Of a stretch of DNA of 64,000 bases, positions 19,808-51,833 are shown piece after piece. Source of the stretch: Candidatus Poribacteria bacterium (GTDB taxonomy: Bacteria > Poribacteria > WGA-4E > WGA-3G); the NCBI GenBank assembly GCA_028820845.1, contig JAPPII010000047.1:1-64000 (forward strand), given 5' to 3'. Numbering within the stretch: position 1 is the stretch's first letter; every line of letters starts with the position of its first letter. The notes under the pieces are model-generated. The model made no database searches. It saw only the letters and a list, made by a program, of their open reading frames with translations, and was not told the DNA's origin. Position numbers and translations under genes: made by a program.

Positions 19808-22039
19808 ATGCTAAGATTTGTGATTGTGTTCCTGCTCTCTCTTTCATACCCGATTCTGCTCTTCGCACACCCAGAGGGTGCGGGAGAGCATACCATTGAA
19901 GCCTACCGAATTGAAGGTGAACCGCCAAATATTGATGGGCTGCTCAACGAGGCTGTTTGGCATCAGGCACAACCTCGGAGTGGTTTCATTCAGCTGCGAC
20001 CTTCGCGCGGTGCTGCCGCAACAGATGACACAGAATTCCGTATCGCTTACGATGCCAACAATCTTTACATCGCATTTCGATGCTACGATGCTGAACCCTC
20101 CAAGATTCTTAATCGACTGACCCGGCGCGGTGAGATCAACGCATCGGATCTCATCTCTTTTTTCATTGATCCGCATCACGATCATCGGACCGGTTATAAG
20201 TTTGCGACAAATCCGAGTGGTGTGCAAAGCGATAACTATCGTTACGAGGACACGCAACGGGACAGCAATTGGAAGGGGATTTGGTGGGTTGAATGTAACA
20301 TTGATGAATTAGGATGGACTGCTGAGTTTAAAATTCCGTTTTCTAACTTCCGGTTCACCAACAAACCCACACAAATCTGGGGTTTTGACATAGAACGGGT
20401 AAACCGTCGAAAGAGTGAGGTTACGGTGTGGAAACAGCTAACACAAGCGGGTGTGGTTACACGGATGTCGGATTTGGGGCATATCTTGGGCATCCAGGGC
20501 ATTGAAACGGGGAAAAATTTTGAGATTATGCCGTACCTTTTAGGTGGGGGAACGGGTGCTGCCGATGTGGATCTAACGCGCCAACTCGGCACCGGACTGG
20601 ATGTTCAATACAACCTCACGAGTGCGCTGAAGGCGAACGTTACATTTAACCCGGATTTCGCACAGGTTGAAGCGGATCAATTGGAGATTAATTTGACCCG
20701 TTTTCCGACCCGTTTTCCCGAAAAACGCCCGTTCTTTGTTGAAGGCAATAGTTTCTTTGAAACGCCGTACGATCTTATGTTCAGCCGTCGTATCGGGAGT
20801 CGCGGGAATATCCTTTGGGGTGGTAAACTTACAGGGAAAGTAGGGAACTACTCTATGGGTGTCTTAGGCAATCAAACGGGGGAATTCGGTTTGTCTGAAA
20901 CCGCTTCGTCAGAAAAAGAGGCGGCATGGTTTTCTGCGATCCGCGTTAAGCGCGACATCCTTAAACGCTCAAACGTTGGGATTCTATTTGTCAATAAAGA
21001 GCAGGGCGGCAGCGACAGATGGCATAGCCGCGTCGGTGGCGTTGATATGAATCTTGCGCTTGGCAAAACTTATCATCTCACAGGTCAGTATGCGGGTAGC
21101 TTTCATCCCGGTGAGGATAGCAATAACTCGGCGTGGACGATTGATTTTGCACAACGCAACTACCTGTGGAGCAGTAGCATTGAACTGGAACGGGTCGCGC
21201 CGCATTTTGAGATTAACGAGACTGGGTATCTCCGTAAAGAACGGAACCGCGGATGGCAGCGGGTTCAGATGCGCACTTCCTATTCTCCGCCGTGGGGGCC
21301 CCGCCAGTTTTTCTCAGGCATCAGTGGACGGCTCTCACAAAGCCTTTATACCCCCGAATATTTTGCTGCGTGGAGAGAACGGAACCCTGAACTGTCGCTT
21401 TCACCTGAATTTGACGAAGATTTGCTCAGATGGCATGTGAGTGCTGATGTTGGGATGGATTTCAGAGAGACGCTTGTAGATGATATTATGCTCTACTATT
21501 ATCGGAGTCGAGAAGTTGAATTGACAGAGGTATTTGTAGCGGATGGATACGGATTTGAGATTGACACCAACTCTGCATATCCGATTGCTATTGGCATCGG
21601 CATGGATTTTTCGGACTACTTTAACTTCGGCCGACAACAAGCGGGTAAACAGCGAAGTCTCACCCTTGAATCGACGCTGCGTCCACAGAGCAATTTTTCA
21701 ATAGAATTAGACAGCGGTTATGCCCAAAGCCTCGATTTAACGGGGGCAATTGACGGTAGATTTTTCGTCAGCTCCATGCGTGCGACTTACCTATTCACAC
21801 GGGAATCGTTTCTTCGGATATTCGCCCAAGCGAACCGAGAACGTGAGCTCTCTGAGGAAATCCATCAAAACTACCTGTTGAGTTTTCTCTTCGGATGGGA
21901 ATATAGTCCGAAGAGTCATCTGTTTGTTGCTTACAATGAAGCTTGGGGGGATGCCGCCACTCGGACGGGTGAAGGTCGCGAGTTACAGTTGGAAAATCGG
22001 GTTGTAGTGGTTAAAGTGACGTATTTGTATAACTTGTAG
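19808..22039 (+). CDS. Secreted CBM9-like / DUF5916 outer-membrane barrel protein
   Basis: 743 aa. A signal peptide (about 1-20, ending LLFAHP) is followed by a carbohydrate-binding family 9-like domain at about 35-200: IDGLLNEAVWHQA, YDANNLYIAFRCYD, FIDPHHDHRTGY and GWTAEFKIPFS. The DUF5916 region runs from about 240 to the end; it has alternating hydrophobic/aromatic strands and ends in an aromatic-rich strand, as expected for an outer-membrane beta barrel. Function is unknown; a role in glycan or protein handling at the surface is inferred from the CBM9-like fold. The gene starts directly behind its promoter. A GC-rich hairpin follows at 22058-22078. Confidence 0.88.
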   Translation: MLRFVIVFLLSLSYPILLFAHPEGAGEHTIEAYRIEGEPPNIDGLLNEAVWHQAQPRSGFIQLRPSRGAAATDDTEFRIAYDANNLYIAFRCYDAEPSKILNRLTRRGEINASDLISFFIDPHHDHRTGYKFATNPSGVQSDNYRYEDTQRDSNWKGIWWVECNIDELGWTAEFKIPFSNFRFTNKPTQIWGFDIERVNRRKSEVTVWKQLTQAGVVTRMSDLGHILGIQGIETGKNFEIMPYLLGGGTGAADVDLTRQLGTGLDVQYNLTSALKANVTFNPDFAQVEADQLEINLTRFPTRFPEKRPFFVEGNSFFETPYDLMFSRRIGSRGNILWGGKLTGKVGNYSMGVLGNQTGEFGLSETASSEKEAAWFSAIRVKRDILKRSNVGILFVNKEQGGSDRWHSRVGGVDMNLALGKTYHLTGQYAGSFHPGEDSNNSAWTIDFAQRNYLWSSSIELERVAPHFEINETGYLRKERNRGWQRVQMRTSYSPPWGPRQFFSGISGRLSQSLYTPEYFAAWRERNPELSLSPEFDEDLLRWHVSADVGMDFRETLVDDIMLYYYRSREVELTEVFVADGYGFEIDTNSAYPIAIGIGMDFSDYFNFGRQQAGKQRSLTLESTLRPQSNFSIELDSGYAQSLDLTGAIDGRFFVSSMRATYLFTRESFLRIFAQANRERELSEEIHQNYLLSFLFGWEYSPKSHLFVAYNEAWGDAATRTGEGRELQLENRVVVVKVTYLYNL

Positions 22040-30468: not shown

Positions 30469-30469
<1 letters not shown>

Positions 30470-32472
30470 TGATAGATTTTTGGTATGTTGCGCGCTCGCT
30501 TGGGATCCTGTGCTTAATTATGGCAATCAGCAGCCAATCATCAGCAGTCGGTCAAGAACGGTTTGTGGAAACCGAAAGCAATACGCAACCACCATACACT
30601 GAAAGCCGAAAGCTGAAAGCCGAAAGCCAATATGATGAGGCGAATATCGTACGCAGTCTCGTCATCAGCGGGAATAACTCATTTTCCGACCAACAAATTC
30701 GCGCCCTGATGGGGACAGATGTCTGGAGTGTCTATGATGAGACCCTTCTGAAAGCGGATTTTGAAGCGATCGTCCGTTTCTATCGGGAGAATGGCTATCA
30801 GTTCGCTCGCATTATTGAAGAGCAACTCTCTGTAAAGAAATTCGGAGATGGTATTTACCTGGGTATCGAAATTGATGAAGGTAACATTGGACAGATTCTC
30901 GTAAGCGGTAATATACAGACGAAGGAGGAGGTAATTCGGCGTGAACTTCTATTTGCGGAAGGAGATATCTATACAGAAGCAGATAGAATAGAGAGTGAGC
31001 AGATTCTGCGGCGTAAGACGTATATTGGTGCTGCAAAGGTGGATGCCCAGTGGGATGAACTCTCAAAAAGGGTTATCGTTCATGCAAGTATTACGGAACT
31101 CTTGTCGTTCCCATTCGGAGCAGACTTGAACCTGAACAACCAGAAAAGGTACTGGCTACTACAATTTCGGGATCCAAACCTGTTCGGTTCGGGGCAAAGT
31201 ACCTTGTGGCGTTACGAAAGGATTAGCGAAATTGGCGAGAGGACGCGGAGCCTTGTGAGAGGTAGATATTCCAACCCTCGCCTTTTTAATTCACACTGGA
31301 ATTTTGACGGTGAATATATCCAGAAGCGAGATGGGGACTCTTTACTTGTATTGTTAGAACGTCCACAATATACATTGAAAAGTCGATGGAGTGCAAGTAT
31401 CCGTTTTTCTGAATCGGTCAATCCCGTAACTTGGTATGAAAACGGACGAGAAACCGATAGGTTTGAGCAAAATTTACAAGGCGCCTTTGCAAATGTGCAA
31501 CGCTACTTCGGGGACAGACGGCAACAGAACTATATAGGGCTCTGGGCGACCTCACGGCGTTTGAAATATGTGTTACTTGACAAATCAGTTGAATCAGGAG
31601 CGATGTTAGAAGAGCGCGATATAAAGCGGGTTGGTTTCACGCTGGGTAGAAAACACACCGCATATCACAAAACTCGGTTTCTCCAACGGATGGGACAAGA
31701 GGAGAATTTTCTCGTCGGTGCGCAATACGCGCTGTCTCTTGGGTATGCTTCGCCATTATATGGCTCTGACCGAACAGAATCTTACGCTGAATTGGCTGTC
31801 GGTTCGGGGTGGATGAAAGGAGATCGGTTTTTTGGTCTCACAACAGTCGCACTTAACACAAACTTGACGAGTCGAATTGAACGGTCTGTTCTCCAGGCAC
31901 GGACTTCTTGGTTTTATACAGATGTATTTAATACCGGTGATATCTATACGCTTGAAAGGGGTTTTAGAGAGAATGGCCTCTTTGACTTTCATCAGACATT
32001 TGTTGCGCAGCTGACAACAGAGATGCAGTTCGGATGGAGTGGGCGGAGTCAAGTCCTTTTGGGGGCTTTTAATGGTTTGCGCGGTTATGATTATAGACAA
32101 TTCAACGGAGAGAAGCTCGTCCTATTGAATCTTGAGAGTCGCACTGTATTTGGTGGCACAATTTTCCACAAAATGGACGAAGCTCTCGCAGCGGTAGCGA
32201 CGTTTGTGGCGCGCCCGTTTATTGATAGACCTGTACACCTTGGATTCATATTAAGCGGCGTTGTGTTCGCTGATATTGGATATATCTGGAATGGAAGAAA
32301 CAGTTTTGATTTGGCGGCACCAAAGCGGAGTGTGGGATTTGGATTGCGGAGTAGCCTCTCTCAGTTTAGTGGTACGGGCATTCTTCGGGTAGAATTTGCG
32401 TTTCCGCTCGATCCGCCTTTCGCGCCATCGCTTAAACCTCGGATTTTTTATGGTCAGGAACGCACATTTTAA
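30469..32472 (+). CDS. Omp85/BamA-TamA-like outer-membrane protein
   Basis: 667 aa. A signal peptide is followed by two POTRA-like domains (about 60-140 and 141-215; the first starts VRSLVISGNNSFSDQQIRAL). A C-terminal beta barrel follows (about 220-667), with the conserved lid-loop type sequence FNGLRGYDYRQF near 535-546, matching the VRGF/Y motif of Omp85 proteins. It probably inserts or exports proteins across the outer membrane. The N-terminal region between signal peptide and POTRA contains repeat-encoded residues (SSQSSAVG and YTESRKLKAESQ). It overlaps the BatA/VWA gene by one base, so the two surface proteins are co-translated. Confidence 0.88.
30599..30626 (+). repeat. 14-bp repeat in the Omp85-like gene
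   Basis: Two copies of CTGAAAGCCGAAAG, each made of two heptamers, just downstream of the signal-peptide region. A shorter heptamer tract lies at about 30524-30553. Confidence 0.85.
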
Positions 32473-34527: not shown

Positions 34528-35608
34528 TTAATCCGATATTTTCTGTAAACGGATACCACCACCAGAGGTGCGCAATTTCATCAGGGGACCCCCGCCGTTT
34601 ATGCTCCCTTTCAACCTATTTTTTGGAACTTTTCCCTGAATGGTGGATGCTACTGCAAAGTCTGTTGAGACGCTCCCGCCGCTGGTTGTGGCGTCCACAT
34701 CAATTGCGATATCTGGGATGAGGATAACAGTTATGTTACCGCCGGATGTGCGCAAACTACATTCATCGTGAAGTTGTGCTGTTAGAAGGGCTTGGATAGA
34801 ACCGCCTGAGGTTCTGGCATTTACAGTCCCGATGGTGCTCCCCAGTTTGATGCTACCTCCCGAGGTATGAACATCTACGTCTCCACTACACTTCTCAACC
34901 TTGATACTACCCCCGGATGTTTTGCCCCAAACGGAGCCCTGAATGTCCCCAAAGCGGATGCCCCCGCCAGAGGTTTGTGCTTGAACATCGCCTGCGACAT
35001 CGCCCACTTCAATACTACCACCAGAGGTCTTGAGATCGACAGGACTGTCACACGATGTAAGTTTGATGCTACCCCCGGATGTTCGTCCCCACACTGTCCC
35101 TGTAATGTTTCCGAAACGCAAACTGCCGCCTGAGGTCCTCGCGCGGACATCCCCGTTAAGGTCGGCTACTGAGATACTACCGCTTGCGGTATCCAAATCG
35201 ACGTTGTAATCTTTAGGCACAGTTAGTTACCTGAAAACGAATTTCGAGACGATTTAGCACTTTCCTCCAGTGCTCTCGACCTTGTTTGAATGTGCCTTCA
35301 ATACGGACACCAGTATCTTCGTTGGTGAATGCCACATCAAAATCGGCAAGTGCCTCTTTTGCAGCAGATCTGCTCAACGGCTTTGCTGCCTTTGTGACGA
35401 CGATCTTAACCTGATCCCCTTCAGCGGTTTGGACATCAATTGCACCAAACTCTGAGACAAGGGTTAGGCTACCACCCGAATTAACGCTATATGCTTTTTC
35501 AATCTTGTCCACAATATGTTCCTCATCCGTTAAGGCTACCTCACAACCAATAGTAAAAAATAAAACCAATACCGAGAGAGAAAAGGTTAAGGTAATAAAC
35601 CGATTCAT
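34528..35608 (-). pseudogene. DUF4097-family lipoprotein gene interrupted by a 4-bp duplication
   Basis: The two minus-strand frames together make one gene. 35,608-35,213 encodes a lipoprotein signal (lipobox FTIGC, about residue 22) and the start of a DUF4097 adhesin-like domain, ending RFQVTNCA and stop. 35,220-34,528 continues PKDYNVDLDTASGSISV and then about ten TSGGSI/RFG repeats that form a beta-helix-like fold. Between them GTTA is doubled at 35222-35229. Removing one GTTA joins the frames as RFQVT-VPKDYNV, the expected family sequence. The undisturbed product would be about 360 aa, exported and lipid-anchored. The break could be a recent mutation, a reversible slippage event or a sequencing error. 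Confidence 0.85.
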
Positions 35609-46944: not shown

Positions 46945-48057
46945 CTACACCGTGAAAGGTAGCAGCGCGATTTTCCCGTCGATCCGTCCCGCTGGGGTCT
47001 CAATTTGAACGCGACTTCCGGCATCAGTGACCACCATCCGAACGTAAGCCATCGCGATCGGTTTTCCGAGCGTTGGGGCAAAGGTGGCACTCGTAATCCA
47101 ACCGACCTCCTTATCCCCATTGAAAACCGGTATACCTTGGTGGAGTTCAAAGGATTCCGCTGATGCCGAGATGCCCTCAACTTCAATACCACGCAATAGG
47201 CGATTGGGATGCCCGCGATATTTCATCCGAGCGACAATTTCTTGCCCAATATAGCACCCCTTCTCAAAGTCAATCGCGTGTTCTAACTCCGCCTCAAGCG
47301 GGATGACAGCATCGGTCAGTTCGGTTCCATACCTTGGAATGCCTGCCTCAATCCGAAGCGACTCAAGGGCGTTCCAACCAATCGGTTGAACGTTAAACCG
47401 TTCACCTTCACGCATTAGTCTTTCCCAAAGCGGCACCAATGCCTCAGCTGCAGTGTAAAGTGTATAACCCATCTCGCCTGTTGTATCTGTTCTCACACAT
47501 ACAACATTATAGTTGAACAGGGCATCCGCTTCATGAAAACGATTGTAGCGTTCAGGTAAGTCGGCGAGCCCATTCATACCCAGTACAAGCTGGACGAGGT
47601 CTGATGACTGAGGACCGTGGACAGCAATTGCCCCGGTTTCAGCAGTTAAATCAGAAATCTCGACATCGTCAGCGATAATGTATTTGTCCAATTCGTTGAA
47701 GAGGGTTTCTGTCGTCTCAGCGGCGGTGTCAATGCCTATCATATCTTTGAAGACATAGACATTAAAATCAGCAATAATCTTGCCTCGATGCGTCAAGATC
47801 ATGGCGTACGTGCCTTGTCCTTCTGATAGGCTTTCAACATCATTGGAGATGAGACGGTGCAGAAATTTTGCCCGATCTTCTCCGACTAATCGGTGTCTGC
47901 CGCGATAGGATACATCAGCAATGCCGACATTGTTCCTCACAGTGTGATGCTCGGAAATTGGGTCGGTAAATTGGATAGCTACATTCCAGTCGTGGTGCCT
48001 TTTCGCAAAGGTCGCTCCCAACTGTTCATGGATGTGATAAAGTGATGTTGTTTTCAT
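46945..48057 (-). CDS. GcvT/YgfZ-family folate-binding protein
   Basis: 370 aa. The GcvT aminomethyltransferase-like fold spans the whole protein. The YgfZ signature KGCYIGQE is present at residues 266-273 with C268, the residue associated with Fe-S cluster assembly and repair. GcvT itself carries a different, catalytic Asp motif here. The N-terminal part (VGIADVSYRGRHRLVGEDRAKFLHRLISND) is typical for the family. It follows the 1,254-aa surface gene by 11 bp and has little Shine-Dalgarno signal, so it may depend on read-through from that gene. I prefer a YgfZ-like role over glycine cleavage. Confidence 0.87.
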   Translation of the reverse strand: MKTTSLYHIHEQLGATFAKRHHDWNVAIQFTDPISEHHTVRNNVGIADVSYRGRHRLVGEDRAKFLHRLISNDVESLSEGQGTYAMILTHRGKIIADFNVYVFKDMIGIDTAAETTETLFNELDKYIIADDVEISDLTAETGAIAVHGPQSSDLVQLVLGMNGLADLPERYNRFHEADALFNYNVVCVRTDTTGEMGYTLYTAAEALVPLWERLMREGERFNVQPIGWNALESLRIEAGIPRYGTELTDAVIPLEAELEHAIDFEKGCYIGQEIVARMKYRGHPNRLLRGIEVEGISASAESFELHQGIPVFNGDKEVGWITSATFAPTLGKPIAMAYVRMVVTDAGSRVQIETPAGRIDGKIALLPFTV

Positions 48058-48068
48058 ATTTTTATAGT

Positions 48069-51000
48069 TTAAAAGATGCGGTCCAAACGCAAAATGATTT
48101 GTGGATTCCGTAGCGAGAACGATGCACTAAGGGGTTCTGCAACCTCAAGCGCAATACTCAAAGGTCCGAGACCTCCTGACGAATCCATAAAAACGGAACA
48201 ACCGACACCGATTGCGGTGTTGAATTGCGTCGTGAATTCGCCAAAGTCTGGAAATGCGACATCGTCGTACCACCACGCCCTACCCGAATCTAAGAAGCAG
48301 CTCAGCGTCCATCCAAGAACAGCATCAGATTCGGGGAACGTTACCTCTTTCATAAATCGATACTCAAGGTTAAGCAGTAACCGATTATCTCCAGCAAATC
48401 TATTGAAACCGTAGCCTCGGAGGTTAGCACCACCACCGAGGTGCAGGAGTCGTTGTGTGGGCAAGGGCGCGTCTGAAAAATCACCGCCAACTCGGACATG
48501 GAGATGATGCGGACCGAACAATCGTGTATAGCGTATCAACTCAAATTGATAGAGATTGAAGGGATAGTCTCCTCTTGCGATTTCGATGCCGACCTGTCCA
48601 CGCCACCCCCGTTGGGTGCGTTCATTGGCAGAAAAGTAGGTATGGAAATGCCGCCTTGTGGTGGATTTGTGGTCTCGCGTATCAAAGGCATAAATCAAGG
48701 CGACCCCTTCCAACACACCGCTATCAATTCGGGCATTGCCTCGCTTGACCTGGTTTCGATTTAAGTAACTCCAATCCGTTGATTTGGAGAGATTATCGTG
48801 TGCTTCCGTTGTCAATTCGAGTCGCAAGTAGTGCCATTCCGAAGCTGCGTAGGTTATCCATCCCTGAACACCCTGACGGCGGTAATAATCCTGAAGGTCG
48901 AAACCGTAGTAGGCAGCACTCAGATTGACGTTACCGGAACTTAGCGCGGCATTAGAACTGATGCCTGTGAGTTTATACACACTTGCGCCGACTTTGAGAG
49001 ATTGCCGACTAAAAAAACTCTTCTCAAGTCCGGCGTGATAGTCCCATGTTTTGCTGGAAAATCCACGACTTAGGGCACCGAAAAGTTGCTCTTTACCTAC
49101 GCGCTGGGTTGTGAGCCGGGTTGCGAGTGTTCCGCCTGCGCCGAGTACTAACCCATGGACACGGTTGAATTGAAGAATCGGGAAGCCGGAAGTGCTCGCG
49201 CGCGGTTGCTCCTCAATTTCAACAATCATGATGTTTTTTCCGCCCTCGCGCTGGACTCGCCAATTCTGGATCGATTTGAAGTCCTCATTATTTGCGTTGA
49301 GCTGCCGTCGCATCTGGTTTATTTTTGACTGCCCGAGGGAACGATGATAGACATCAGGAGTCGGTGAATTCGGTTTTTCGTCGGCATCTGCGGTTTCTAT
49401 ATTCAGTGCCTTCAAGAGTTCTTCGCGAGAAATTTGGTGATTTCCGGTAAAACGTACTTCGTGTAATGTGCCCTCATTAATGGTAAAGGTAAGCACATCG
49501 TCAAGGTATTGACGGGTAACCGTAGCGGACTCATGGTCAAATGCAAGTACATCGTCAATGTGCCGATAAGTAACCGTAGCGAATTCGTATCCGCGGTTTA
49601 AATAAAAATCCGCAATCAATTGTTGTTTGCGTTTAACAACATCAAGGGCGAGATAGCCACTTTCTAATTGAAACCACCGCTTGATGAAAGCCGTAGGAAA
49701 AGTTCTGTTTCCATCAATCTGAATCTGGCGAGCAAATACGACAGGTGCTTCTGTAATTTTAATAAGCAGTCCAATAGTTGCCGAGCGTTCGGACGCTGCA
49801 TCGTCGGCAATCAACTGTTTCGTCTCCAAACGTACATCCTGGAACATGTCTCGGTTCCGCATTTCAGCCAGCAACCATGACAGTTGGGTGCTTGTGATAA
49901 CATCTCCAGCCCGAACAGGTATTTGTTGCTGAACAACCTCTGTCGGAATTAAAGTATTGCCCTCAATTTCAATCGTTGCAACTCGGAATTGCTCTTCGGT
50001 TGCAAAGGTTTCAGAAGGGAAAGGTGACCGTCTTTCAAAACGGAGAACTCCCATCGCTGGGGCAATGTATTCGGAAAGGGGTGCGGTGTATTCATGTGGC
50101 AAATGGGGCCACCATGGATGCTCGTCATAGTAAGTTGGTAACCAATAACTGTACTCCCGCTGTGTAGTAGATACGAAGTTTTCGGTATCCTTTGTAATCA
50201 GCTGCGCCTTACGGTGAATGTTAAAAAGTGATATATCTTTGAGTTCGGACGAATTTTGTAAATTTATCTGCGCCGGTTTTTCCAGCGTTTCACGCGGGAT
50301 CGCAATTTCAAGGCTCCAAGAAGTGGCGTTAATTTGTGTTGCAACCTCCGCATCTGAACTCCAAGCGCGGTCTCCTTCAAAGGTCGTCTTCAGTGCTTGT
50401 TGATCCAAGGCAAGTTGGACATCTGATGGCGCGAATTGGAAGCTCGCCTCTCCGGGCTTACTGACCTGTTGGTCAAAGAGCGCGCCAATTGGATTGATAA
50501 CAAGGTGATGGTAAACATCGGTGCGTGGATTGGCATCAATTAGGATTTCAATGCACTCATCTTCCCAAATCGGGGAATCGCGCTGCGTCTGTGAGACACG
50601 AGGTAGTTGCGAATTGGGGATATGTGCAATCACACCGATATATAAATTTTGATCATCCCACATCAAGAAAGTCTCAGTCAAATCGTTAGATGCCTCAGTG
50701 CCTTCAGCATTCTGAAACACCGAGAGGGCACTGGCAGCTTGCCAGACAAGTTCAGACAAATTTCCATCAACAACCGGAGGCTTCTCTGTTCGCGGCACAG
50801 GATGTGCGGCATCCAGCAACGACGCGGGTTCTGTATCTGCTTGGGCGTTCCCTTGGTCTCCAGTAGGCATACTTTGTAGCAGCGAGATTCCTTGAGTCGC
50901 TTTTAAACGAAATAGCGGTCCACCATCATTAATAATAGCGAGTGGGGTATCACTTTCAATTTGTGCCGGTAGATTAATGACGACTTGCTGCTTTTCGCTT

Positions 51001-51833
51001 TCAAGCAGGGCATCAATAGCGTAATCTTCAGGAAGTTGCAAAAGTATGTTTCCACCTTGCGCAGTTATATCCATCGGTGCTGCAACAGGGTCAAGGATAG
51101 TCAACTCAACCGCTCCATTCTTCGTCTCCAATTTGTTCTGACCGCGTGTCAACAAAATCTTGCCTTTGATGTTTCCACTTGTTAGGTTCACATTATAGTT
51201 CCCTAAGGTTTCATTTAAGTGGACATTACCTGTCTCCGTTTTAATCTCTATCTCCCCACGAATGCCCTGAAGTTGGATCTCTCCTGCCTTCGATTGAAGT
51301 TTAACGGAGACATCTGAAGGCGTTTTAATTGTACATCTCAACCGGAGGTGCCCACCGAATGTTACTGGTAGATTCTCAATACTGGAAAATGGAATTGGGG
51401 CTGCTTGGGTGTCATCGTCTCCGGGGAGTTGGACTTTCAACTGAAGCGTGCCGTTGTCTTTGGTTCCTGTTACAGAGATATTATCAAGGTAGCTGCGGAT
51501 AGCGAGGTCGTGTCCGGTATGTGTGGCTTGTGTCTGTTTTTCAAGGGCAACGGTAATTGTATCCCCTTCTGTAGCGACGCATTCGATGTCTCCGGGTATA
51601 TTTAAATTCAGATTTATTTGGTAAACGTCTTGGAAACTAAAGGTATGTGATGATGTTGTCCGCAATGCCGACTTCTGTGCTTCAGCAATTGATTCGGCCG
51701 CAATAGGGTTAGGTGTCCGACTCTCAACATCATGATCCACTGCGTATGTAGGATAGACAAGTAGATTTAACACGAGCATGCGTGTGAGAAATAGAAAAAG
51801 ATTGGGTAGAATGGGGCGAGATAGGAGTGACAT
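48069..51833 (-). CDS. Adhesin (DUF4097)-CBM9-POTRA-Omp85 fusion
   Basis: 1,254 aa with a signal peptide (about 1-32, ending YAVDH). From about 55 to 300 a DUF4097 adhesin-like beta region is seen, with VKLQSKAGEIQLQ-type strands. A CBM9-like domain follows at about 340-560: VVDGNLSELVWQAA, WDDQNLYIGVIAHI, DECIEILIDANP. Two POTRA-like domains lie near 610-800 and an Omp85-type barrel of about 380 residues forms the C terminus; the lid-type motif GGGANLRGYGFNRF lies near 1130. Omp85 proteins normally carry only POTRA domains in front of the barrel. GAGGAA precedes the ATG. Confidence 0.85.
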   Translation of the reverse strand: MSLLSRPILPNLFLFLTRMLVLNLLVYPTYAVDHDVESRTPNPIAAESIAEAQKSALRTTSSHTFSFQDVYQINLNLNIPGDIECVATEGDTITVALEKQTQATHTGHDLAIRSYLDNISVTGTKDNGTLQLKVQLPGDDDTQAAPIPFSSIENLPVTFGGHLRLRCTIKTPSDVSVKLQSKAGEIQLQGIRGEIEIKTETGNVHLNETLGNYNVNLTSGNIKGKILLTRGQNKLETKNGAVELTILDPVAAPMDITAQGGNILLQLPEDYAIDALLESEKQQVVINLPAQIESDTPLAIINDGGPLFRLKATQGISLLQSMPTGDQGNAQADTEPASLLDAAHPVPRTEKPPVVDGNLSELVWQAASALSVFQNAEGTEASNDLTETFLMWDDQNLYIGVIAHIPNSQLPRVSQTQRDSPIWEDECIEILIDANPRTDVYHHLVINPIGALFDQQVSKPGEASFQFAPSDVQLALDQQALKTTFEGDRAWSSDAEVATQINATSWSLEIAIPRETLEKPAQINLQNSSELKDISLFNIHRKAQLITKDTENFVSTTQREYSYWLPTYYDEHPWWPHLPHEYTAPLSEYIAPAMGVLRFERRSPFPSETFATEEQFRVATIEIEGNTLIPTEVVQQQIPVRAGDVITSTQLSWLLAEMRNRDMFQDVRLETKQLIADDAASERSATIGLLIKITEAPVVFARQIQIDGNRTFPTAFIKRWFQLESGYLALDVVKRKQQLIADFYLNRGYEFATVTYRHIDDVLAFDHESATVTRQYLDDVLTFTINEGTLHEVRFTGNHQISREELLKALNIETADADEKPNSPTPDVYHRSLGQSKINQMRRQLNANNEDFKSIQNWRVQREGGKNIMIVEIEEQPRASTSGFPILQFNRVHGLVLGAGGTLATRLTTQRVGKEQLFGALSRGFSSKTWDYHAGLEKSFFSRQSLKVGASVYKLTGISSNAALSSGNVNLSAAYYGFDLQDYYRRQGVQGWITYAASEWHYLRLELTTEAHDNLSKSTDWSYLNRNQVKRGNARIDSGVLEGVALIYAFDTRDHKSTTRRHFHTYFSANERTQRGWRGQVGIEIARGDYPFNLYQFELIRYTRLFGPHHLHVRVGGDFSDAPLPTQRLLHLGGGANLRGYGFNRFAGDNRLLLNLEYRFMKEVTFPESDAVLGWTLSCFLDSGRAWWYDDVAFPDFGEFTTQFNTAIGVGCSVFMDSSGGLGPLSIALEVAEPLSASFSLRNPQIILRLDRIF

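Follow-up and report, generated by a model that had tools for sequence, protein, structure and literature searches.

Proteins of the Omp85 superfamily share a loop-6 RG[FY] motif and usually carry at least one POTRA domain. Ten subfamilies were described in 2014 by Heinz and Lithgow, and the known N-terminal types include patatin, metallo, WD40 and lipoprotein forms, as well as a form with no N-terminus (PMC4104836). The passenger of the patatin-type protein PlpD (type Vd) was translocated according to earlier work, as told in PMC4104836; contrary to these secretion reports, the N-terminal domain was later shown to remain periplasmic, and the authors suggested that the Omp85 scaffold is used for novel functions (PMC11116518). 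Here we analyzed a stretch of 64,000 nucleotides (nt), referred to as the window (contig JAPPII010000047.1, positions 1 to 64,000), from a Candidatus Poribacteria genome (GCA_028820845.1; 5.69 Mb), in which one open reading frame (ORF) fuses a DUF4097 domain and a CBM9 domain to three POTRA domains and an Omp85 barrel (Table 1). Poribacteria are known for their association with sponges. This fusion is genuine, and its conservation extends widely across the phylum. An earlier note on this DNA had stated that only POTRAs normally precede an Omp85 barrel, which the patatin, metallo, WD40 and lipoprotein types contradict (PMC4104836). Neither DUF4097 nor CBM9 appears in any subfamily described in section 10 of that paper, and a word search of it for CBM, carbohydrate and DUF4097 gave no hits. 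In the open-licence literature that we searched, no paper covered both Poribacteria and Omp85, and none joined a carbohydrate-binding N-terminal domain fusion with outer-membrane Omp85/BamA.

The domain order and the fusion, as read in that note, were borne out by Pfam matches and two AlphaFold models. Pfam assigned DUF4097 to residues 82-275 (26.6 bits; cut-off, 22.9), CBM9_1 (PF06452) to residues 355-522 (37.5 bits; cut-off, 23.4) and POTRA with 61.8 bits (cut-off, 21.3). The Omp85 match scored 23.6 bits in the single-protein run, just below the cut-off of 24, and 27.3 bits in the whole-genome scan, above it. Three POTRA stretches were found within 49218-49985, two above the cut-off and one just below. 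There was also a weak LiaG match; Pfam gave no match to the patatin domain, and no lipobox was seen by eye in the apparent signal peptide. The domain named in the earlier note stands, but "adhesin" is an old label for it: DUF4097 has since been merged into Toastrack, a domain of envelope-stress systems (PMC11237479). As that note had said, each of the two N-terminal domain types is also found in a protein of its own elsewhere in the window: a stand-alone DUF4097 protein made of regular TSGGSI repeats (34528-35220, minus strand) and a CBM9 protein that also carries DUF5916 (19808-22039, plus strand).

The AlphaFold2 model of residues 56-1254, built with 44 aligned rows (described below), had a mean predicted local distance difference test score (pLDDT) of 78.0 and a predicted template modelling score (pTM) of 0.48; a second model, of residues 56-602, had values of 79.1 and 0.51. 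The relative placing of the domains is unreliable in both. The POTRA and barrel parts matched BamA, TamA and Sam50 with Z scores of 22-24, the best barrel match being D. radiodurans BamA (Z 24.0 over 318 residues, 4.1 Å). Because the 50 matches listed by a Foldseek search with the full model were all Omp85-type chains, the N-terminal half was folded apart. It matched the CBM9 structures 7nwn (Z 17.8, 2.8 Å, 179 residues) and 1i82 (Z 17.0) and the DUF4097-type "putative adhesins" 3pet (Z 13.9) and 4qrk (Z 12.8). With its barrel fold, its loop-6 LRGY and its POTRAs, the protein belongs to the Omp85 superfamily. The 18-residue insertion in POTRA 2 (49473-49580) is an imperfect tandem copy, with 35 of 54 nt identical; it is present in the same-species locus L128 and absent from the other rows listed.

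Table 1. Features of the fusion gene and its downstream neighbour, in positions of the window
Feature	Position	Strand	Remarks
Whole ORF	48069..51833	-	1254 residues, ATG start; signal peptide, DUF4097, CBM9, three POTRAs, Omp85 barrel
Apparent signal peptide, residues 1-31	51741..51833	-	Read from the sequence; cleavage guessed after ...PTYA
DUF4097/Toastrack beta-helix, residues 56-320	50874..51668	-	Pfam, model and structure matches
CBM9 domain, residues 341-602	50028..50813	-	Pfam and structure matches
Trp423 codon, counterpart of clamp Trp71 of Thermotoga CBM9-2	50565..50567	-	Alignment
Trp574-Trp575 codons, likely place of clamp Trp175	50109..50114	-	Approximate alignment, weak second stretch
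POTRA 1	49749..49985	-	Profile match
POTRA 2, with lineage-specific 18-residue insertion	49470..49730	-	Profile match
POTRA 3	49218..49463	-	20.1 bits, below the cut-off of 21.3; fold model
Omp85 barrel, residues 879-1254, with loop-6 LRGY (1138-1141) and FLDSG strand	48072..49199	-	Pfam, model and motifs
GcvT-like gene, 11 nt downstream of the fusion	46945..48057	-	Pfam; probably no functional part

We then determined the distribution of the fusion. When the window's own genome and 59 relatives were searched, every one of the 60 had a match. A scan with two conserved peptides, run over 84,980 species genomes, yielded 54 loci, 52 of them titled Poribacteria, while the other two matched over the CBM9 part only; such a scan would miss divergent fusions outside Poribacteria. 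Profile searches that included the window's own genome gave a match in 80 of 82 genomes at the class level and, at the phylum level, matched the DUF4097-CBM9 half in 82 of 84. The full domain order was present in one ORF in 73 of these 84 Poribacteria genomes, answering the earlier note's suggestion to search for it elsewhere. In 68 of the 73, the profile match reached the last part of CBM9: 55 of 58 genomes in family f1 (the start of the G015 fusion being cut off by a contig end), two of two in f2, seven of nine in f4, and the single genomes of f7, f8 (1023 residues, barrel end missing), f9 (1095 residues) and f10 (1118 residues). The f9 and f10 fusions (G082 and G083) were checked in Pfam, the DUF4097 part of G083 resting on the family profile; for the f7 fusion (G052), the Pfam scores for CBM9 (22.8 bits) and DUF4097 (18.5 bits) were both below the cut-offs. 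The other five fusions have a divergent CBM9 part. Three of them show the order in one ORF (G051 in f6, 1011 residues; G054 and G059 in f5, 1045 and 1055 residues), and two more in f5, G050 (about 1112 residues) and G057 (about 1044 residues), were counted from their alignment to residues 29-1053 and 83-1054 of the G059 protein.

Eleven genomes had no counted fusion. Contig ends accounted for G013 and G049 and a frame break for G080, and only a barrel piece of 411 residues was listed for G055; no fusion gene was found in G065, G047, G056 and G058, and the remaining three genomes belong to f3, in which DUF4097 is joined to the barrel. In the same-species genome G080 (contig C686, locus L128), a break somewhere between residues 625 and 654 splits the ORF into two frames; the contig is titled with 4.9x coverage, and the break is perhaps a sequencing error.

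The window genome was assembled in 125 contigs, which raised the question of misassembly, a frameshift or a fused gene prediction. The same order in one ORF across so many genomes, six of them single-contig genomes with the whole ORF (G005, G010, G022, G029, G044 and G079), excludes misassembly, including the assembly join considered in the earlier note; an artefact of any of these kinds is refuted for practical purposes. In the part of the relatives' neighbourhoods that was covered, no adjoining separate genes for the domains were found. Single-domain CBM9 ORFs of about 240-290 residues occur in genomes both with and without the fusion; we rejected them as a split form of it, since none of the four read by eye had an adjoining POTRA-barrel gene.

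To describe conservation, we used a set of 44 rows made up of the window and 43 of the 54 peptide-scan loci. Loci L106, L109, L116, L117, L128, L129, L143, L151, L155, L156 and L157 were left out as near-duplicate, cut, shortened or non-fusion, and the figures therefore exclude f3 and the decayed f5 and f6 forms. Mean identity over all pairs was 48.4% for DUF4097, 53.4% for CBM9, 50.9% for the POTRAs and 56.3% for the barrel, and invariant positions made up 5.3%, 8.8%, 4.0% and 8.5%, respectively. Conservation across the rows includes the three POTRAs and the loop-6 motif, whose RG pair is kept in 42 and is HG in the remaining two; 43 rows keep the D of the xDxG strand. The ratio of nonsynonymous to synonymous substitution rates (dN/dS) was 0.09-0.28 for every part (seven pairs, four parts), and CBM9 had the lowest value in four of the seven pairs. 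All four parts are thus under purifying selection, and CBM9 is about as well conserved as the barrel; in these families it is therefore not a domain in decay in the wake of a chance fusion.

The CBM9 sugar site appears to be kept. In three alignments, Trp423 of the fusion aligned to the W of NPWEQDS in Thermotoga CBM9-2, which we take to be Trp71; the position is W in 43 of 44 rows. CBM9-2 holds sugars between Trp71 and Trp175, the clamp of another CBM9 in the same paper consists of Tyr and Trp, and CBM9 clamps appear to favour reducing ends (PMC8280721). Trp574 and Trp575, in a PWWPH stretch, lie near the place of Trp175 according to a weak second aligned stretch of one alignment, the two other alignments giving no aligned stretch there; W574 is present in 43 rows and W575 in all 44. 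The earlier note's proposal that the protein could recruit glycans is supported by these residues, which point to a putative glycan-binding site. In the deep-branching loci L063, L158 and L170, the fusion is kept, CBM9 is divergent, and no Trp423 match was seen by eye.

The fusion CBM9s form one clade in the CBM9 tree (support 100), whereas the CBM9 of a paralogue in the window genome, C67 (row L002), clusters with its counterpart in L019, a CBM9-DUF5916 protein (support 100). The C67 paralogue thus took its CBM9 from another lineage, as judged from the tree, so that CBM9 joined an Omp85 barrel at least twice. In f3 (L064/L155, L066 and L067; 649-687 residues), DUF4097 leads straight to the barrel. 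In the quick barrel tree described below, these proteins fall in a 25-row clade (support 97) with full-length members, with the full-length L062, L153 and L063 outside it; the tree gives them no fixed place inside the clade, and its root region, with a support of 13, has long branches. Because the full order occurs in f1, f2, f4 and f5-f10, a deletion in f3 is simpler than a late gain elsewhere.

The fusion is one of several Omp85 proteins encoded in the genome, where nine Omp85-barrel matches were found, one of them below the cut-off. C42 is BamA, with 408 bits against a cut-off of 297 and five POTRAs. C123 has POTRAs and a barrel and follows a TamB ORF (63.1 bits); it scored 66 against the NCBIfam TamA cut-off of 625, and we call it TamA-like because of the adjoining TamB-type ORF. 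With BamA and a TamA-like protein encoded elsewhere, the fusion is an extra Omp85. It cannot be equated with BamA (56.2 bits, far below the NCBIfam cut-off of 297.15; three POTRAs rather than five; extra N-terminal domains) or with TamA, since none of the seven nearby ORFs run in Pfam matched TamB and the TamA-like protein lies elsewhere. In a quick barrel tree with long branches, assessed only by the Shimodaira-Hasegawa-like approximate likelihood ratio test (SH-aLRT), the barrel of the fusion clustered with the C122 and C67 paralogues in a 35-row clade (SH-aLRT 99), apart from BamA and the rest. C67 (L103, 1814-4378) has the order DUF4252-CBM9-Omp85 barrel with no POTRA match, and ahead of it lie a zf-HC2 gene of the anti-sigma type and a DUF4252 gene. 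C7 has three POTRAs. On C122 (L102, 2630-8530), a PA14-domain gene lies between two Omp85-barrel genes, and one of the two barrel proteins has a DUF4252 match just below the cut-off. C37 (L101, 1960-5016) encodes a Peptidase_MA_2 domain, a TolB-like PD40 propeller and an Omp85 barrel in one ORF of 1018 residues. ORFs of 820-870 residues with a barrel match, likened to C67 by length alone, occur in many relatives. The window itself encodes a second Omp85-like protein with two POTRAs (30469-32472), directly after a BatA/VWA gene. The two-partner secretion exoprotein profile PF05860 had no match in the genome, nor in any of the 14 control genomes, and its absence therefore carries no weight.

Compared with described systems, the fusion resembles BamA and TamA in its order, POTRAs first and then a barrel, and in the RG motif of loop 6, and differs from them in its three POTRAs and two extra N-terminal domains. 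Like WD40-Omp85 and other Heinz and Lithgow subfamilies, it carries an extra N-terminal domain on an Omp85 barrel. Like PlpD, it is a single chain in which globular N-terminal structure comes ahead of POTRA and barrel; however, it has Toastrack and CBM9 where PlpD has a patatin lipase, and three POTRAs where one is mentioned for PlpD (PMC11116518). The CBM9-DUF5916 proteins, which are frequent in the genome, similarly have an N-terminal CBM9 before a long C-terminal region, but those run had no POTRA or Omp85 match and their CBM9s belong to a different clade; our literature search found no paper on DUF5916. The DUF4097 beta-helix fold is common to the fusion and the Toastrack (LiaG/LiaF/DUF4097) proteins. 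Toastrack has been proposed as a protein-docking surface and is predicted to be intracellular (PMC11237479). By contrast, the Toastrack of the fusion should be extracytoplasmic, because it lies between an apparent signal peptide and the POTRAs.

To our knowledge, every Omp85 protein characterised so far has its POTRAs in the periplasm. Together with the periplasmic N-terminal domain of PlpD, this would place Toastrack and CBM9 in the periplasm, and the kept RG of loop 6, with the three POTRAs, speaks for a barrel that is active in translocation or assembly. We therefore tentatively prefer, among the explanations weighed, a periplasm-facing Omp85 translocation or assembly factor with an arm that grips a glycan or a glycan-bearing client. 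The protein would be exported by Sec and its C-terminal barrel inserted in the outer membrane, leaving the five N-terminal modules as a long periplasmic arm. The POTRAs beside the barrel would handle client chains as in BamA, TamA and FhaC; CBM9, at mid-arm, would grip one end of a sugar, namely the reducing one if the domain is CBM9-2-like; and the Toastrack beta-helix at the tip would offer a protein-docking surface. The probable task of the arm would be to seize a client that bears, or is bound to, a glycan, or to fix itself to a glycan of the periplasm, as a client enters or crosses the outer membrane. Several observations weigh against this assignment. The placement of the domains in the model is unsure (pTM 0.48), and the f3 proteins gave no Pfam match at all to CBM9 or POTRA. 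In G051, G054 and G059, CBM9 was not called by Pfam and the Trp423 place, read by eye, is not W; with f3, these decayed CBM9s show that neither module is indispensable everywhere. In addition, no client, operon partner or ligand was identified, the frequent neighbour being a GcvT-like gene.

A close rival, possible though doubtful, is that the barrel serves mainly as an anchor, as in PlpD, and that the protein is a periplasmic glycan receptor or scaffold tethered to the outer membrane, with no transport. The periplasmic domain of PlpD and the suggested reuse of the Omp85 scaffold (PMC11116518) agree with this, as do f3 and C67, whose lack of a POTRA match suggests that POTRA-free forms persist; three conserved POTRAs and the loop-6 motif, however, should exceed an anchor's needs. 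We consider it very unlikely that DUF4097 and CBM9 are passengers sent outside, as in type Vd, where they would attach to glycans of a host or of the environment. In favour of this are the order of passenger, POTRA and barrel, which is like that of type Vd, the initial report of PlpD translocation (PMC4104836) and the abundance of CBM9 domains in the genome (18 matches). Against it, a pair of folded beta-domains of about 550 residues would need to pass through the barrel, and the PlpD domain proved periplasmic (PMC11116518). For the same reason, and because the domains precede the POTRAs, the glycan display envisaged in the earlier note is unlikely. Just as improbable is a sensor of envelope stress or glycans, in which Toastrack and DUF4252 are signalling-associated and the barrel senses the state of the outer membrane: DUF4097 falls within the Toastrack domain of envelope-stress systems (PMC11237479) and C67 follows its zf-HC2 and DUF4252 genes, whereas no signalling gene was found among the seven nearby window genes run in Pfam.

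A further reading, which we regard as improbable, is a glycan-gated Omp85, whose CBM9 clamp would take, in the periplasm, the free (reducing) end of a client's glycan or of a nascent polysaccharide and feed it to the POTRA-barrel. If true, Poribacteria would have a dedicated outer-membrane route for moving or inserting glycosylated clients, unlike BAM, TAM and two-partner secretion. Whichever reading applies, the fusion is a real, conserved and unusual variant of the Omp85 kind with a putative function, an architecture new to the superfamily and found across one phylum. It is the first case that we have met of a sugar-binding module in an Omp85 N-terminal arm, with the clamp residues kept in most members, and it puts Toastrack where an extracytoplasmic location is expected, against the published topology prediction (PMC11237479). 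The f3 deletions, the decayed CBM9s of deep lineages and the independent C67 fusion allow the roles of the modules to be compared across natural variants.

Gene neighbours indicate no functional partner. None of the window's neighbours is present at the six f4 loci, and the GcvT-like gene alone is kept at the two f2 loci. This gene follows the fusion in 40 of the 54 loci, and XylI-like, adenylate kinase, GcvT-like and TRAP genes are neighbours common to most loci near the window's own lineage.

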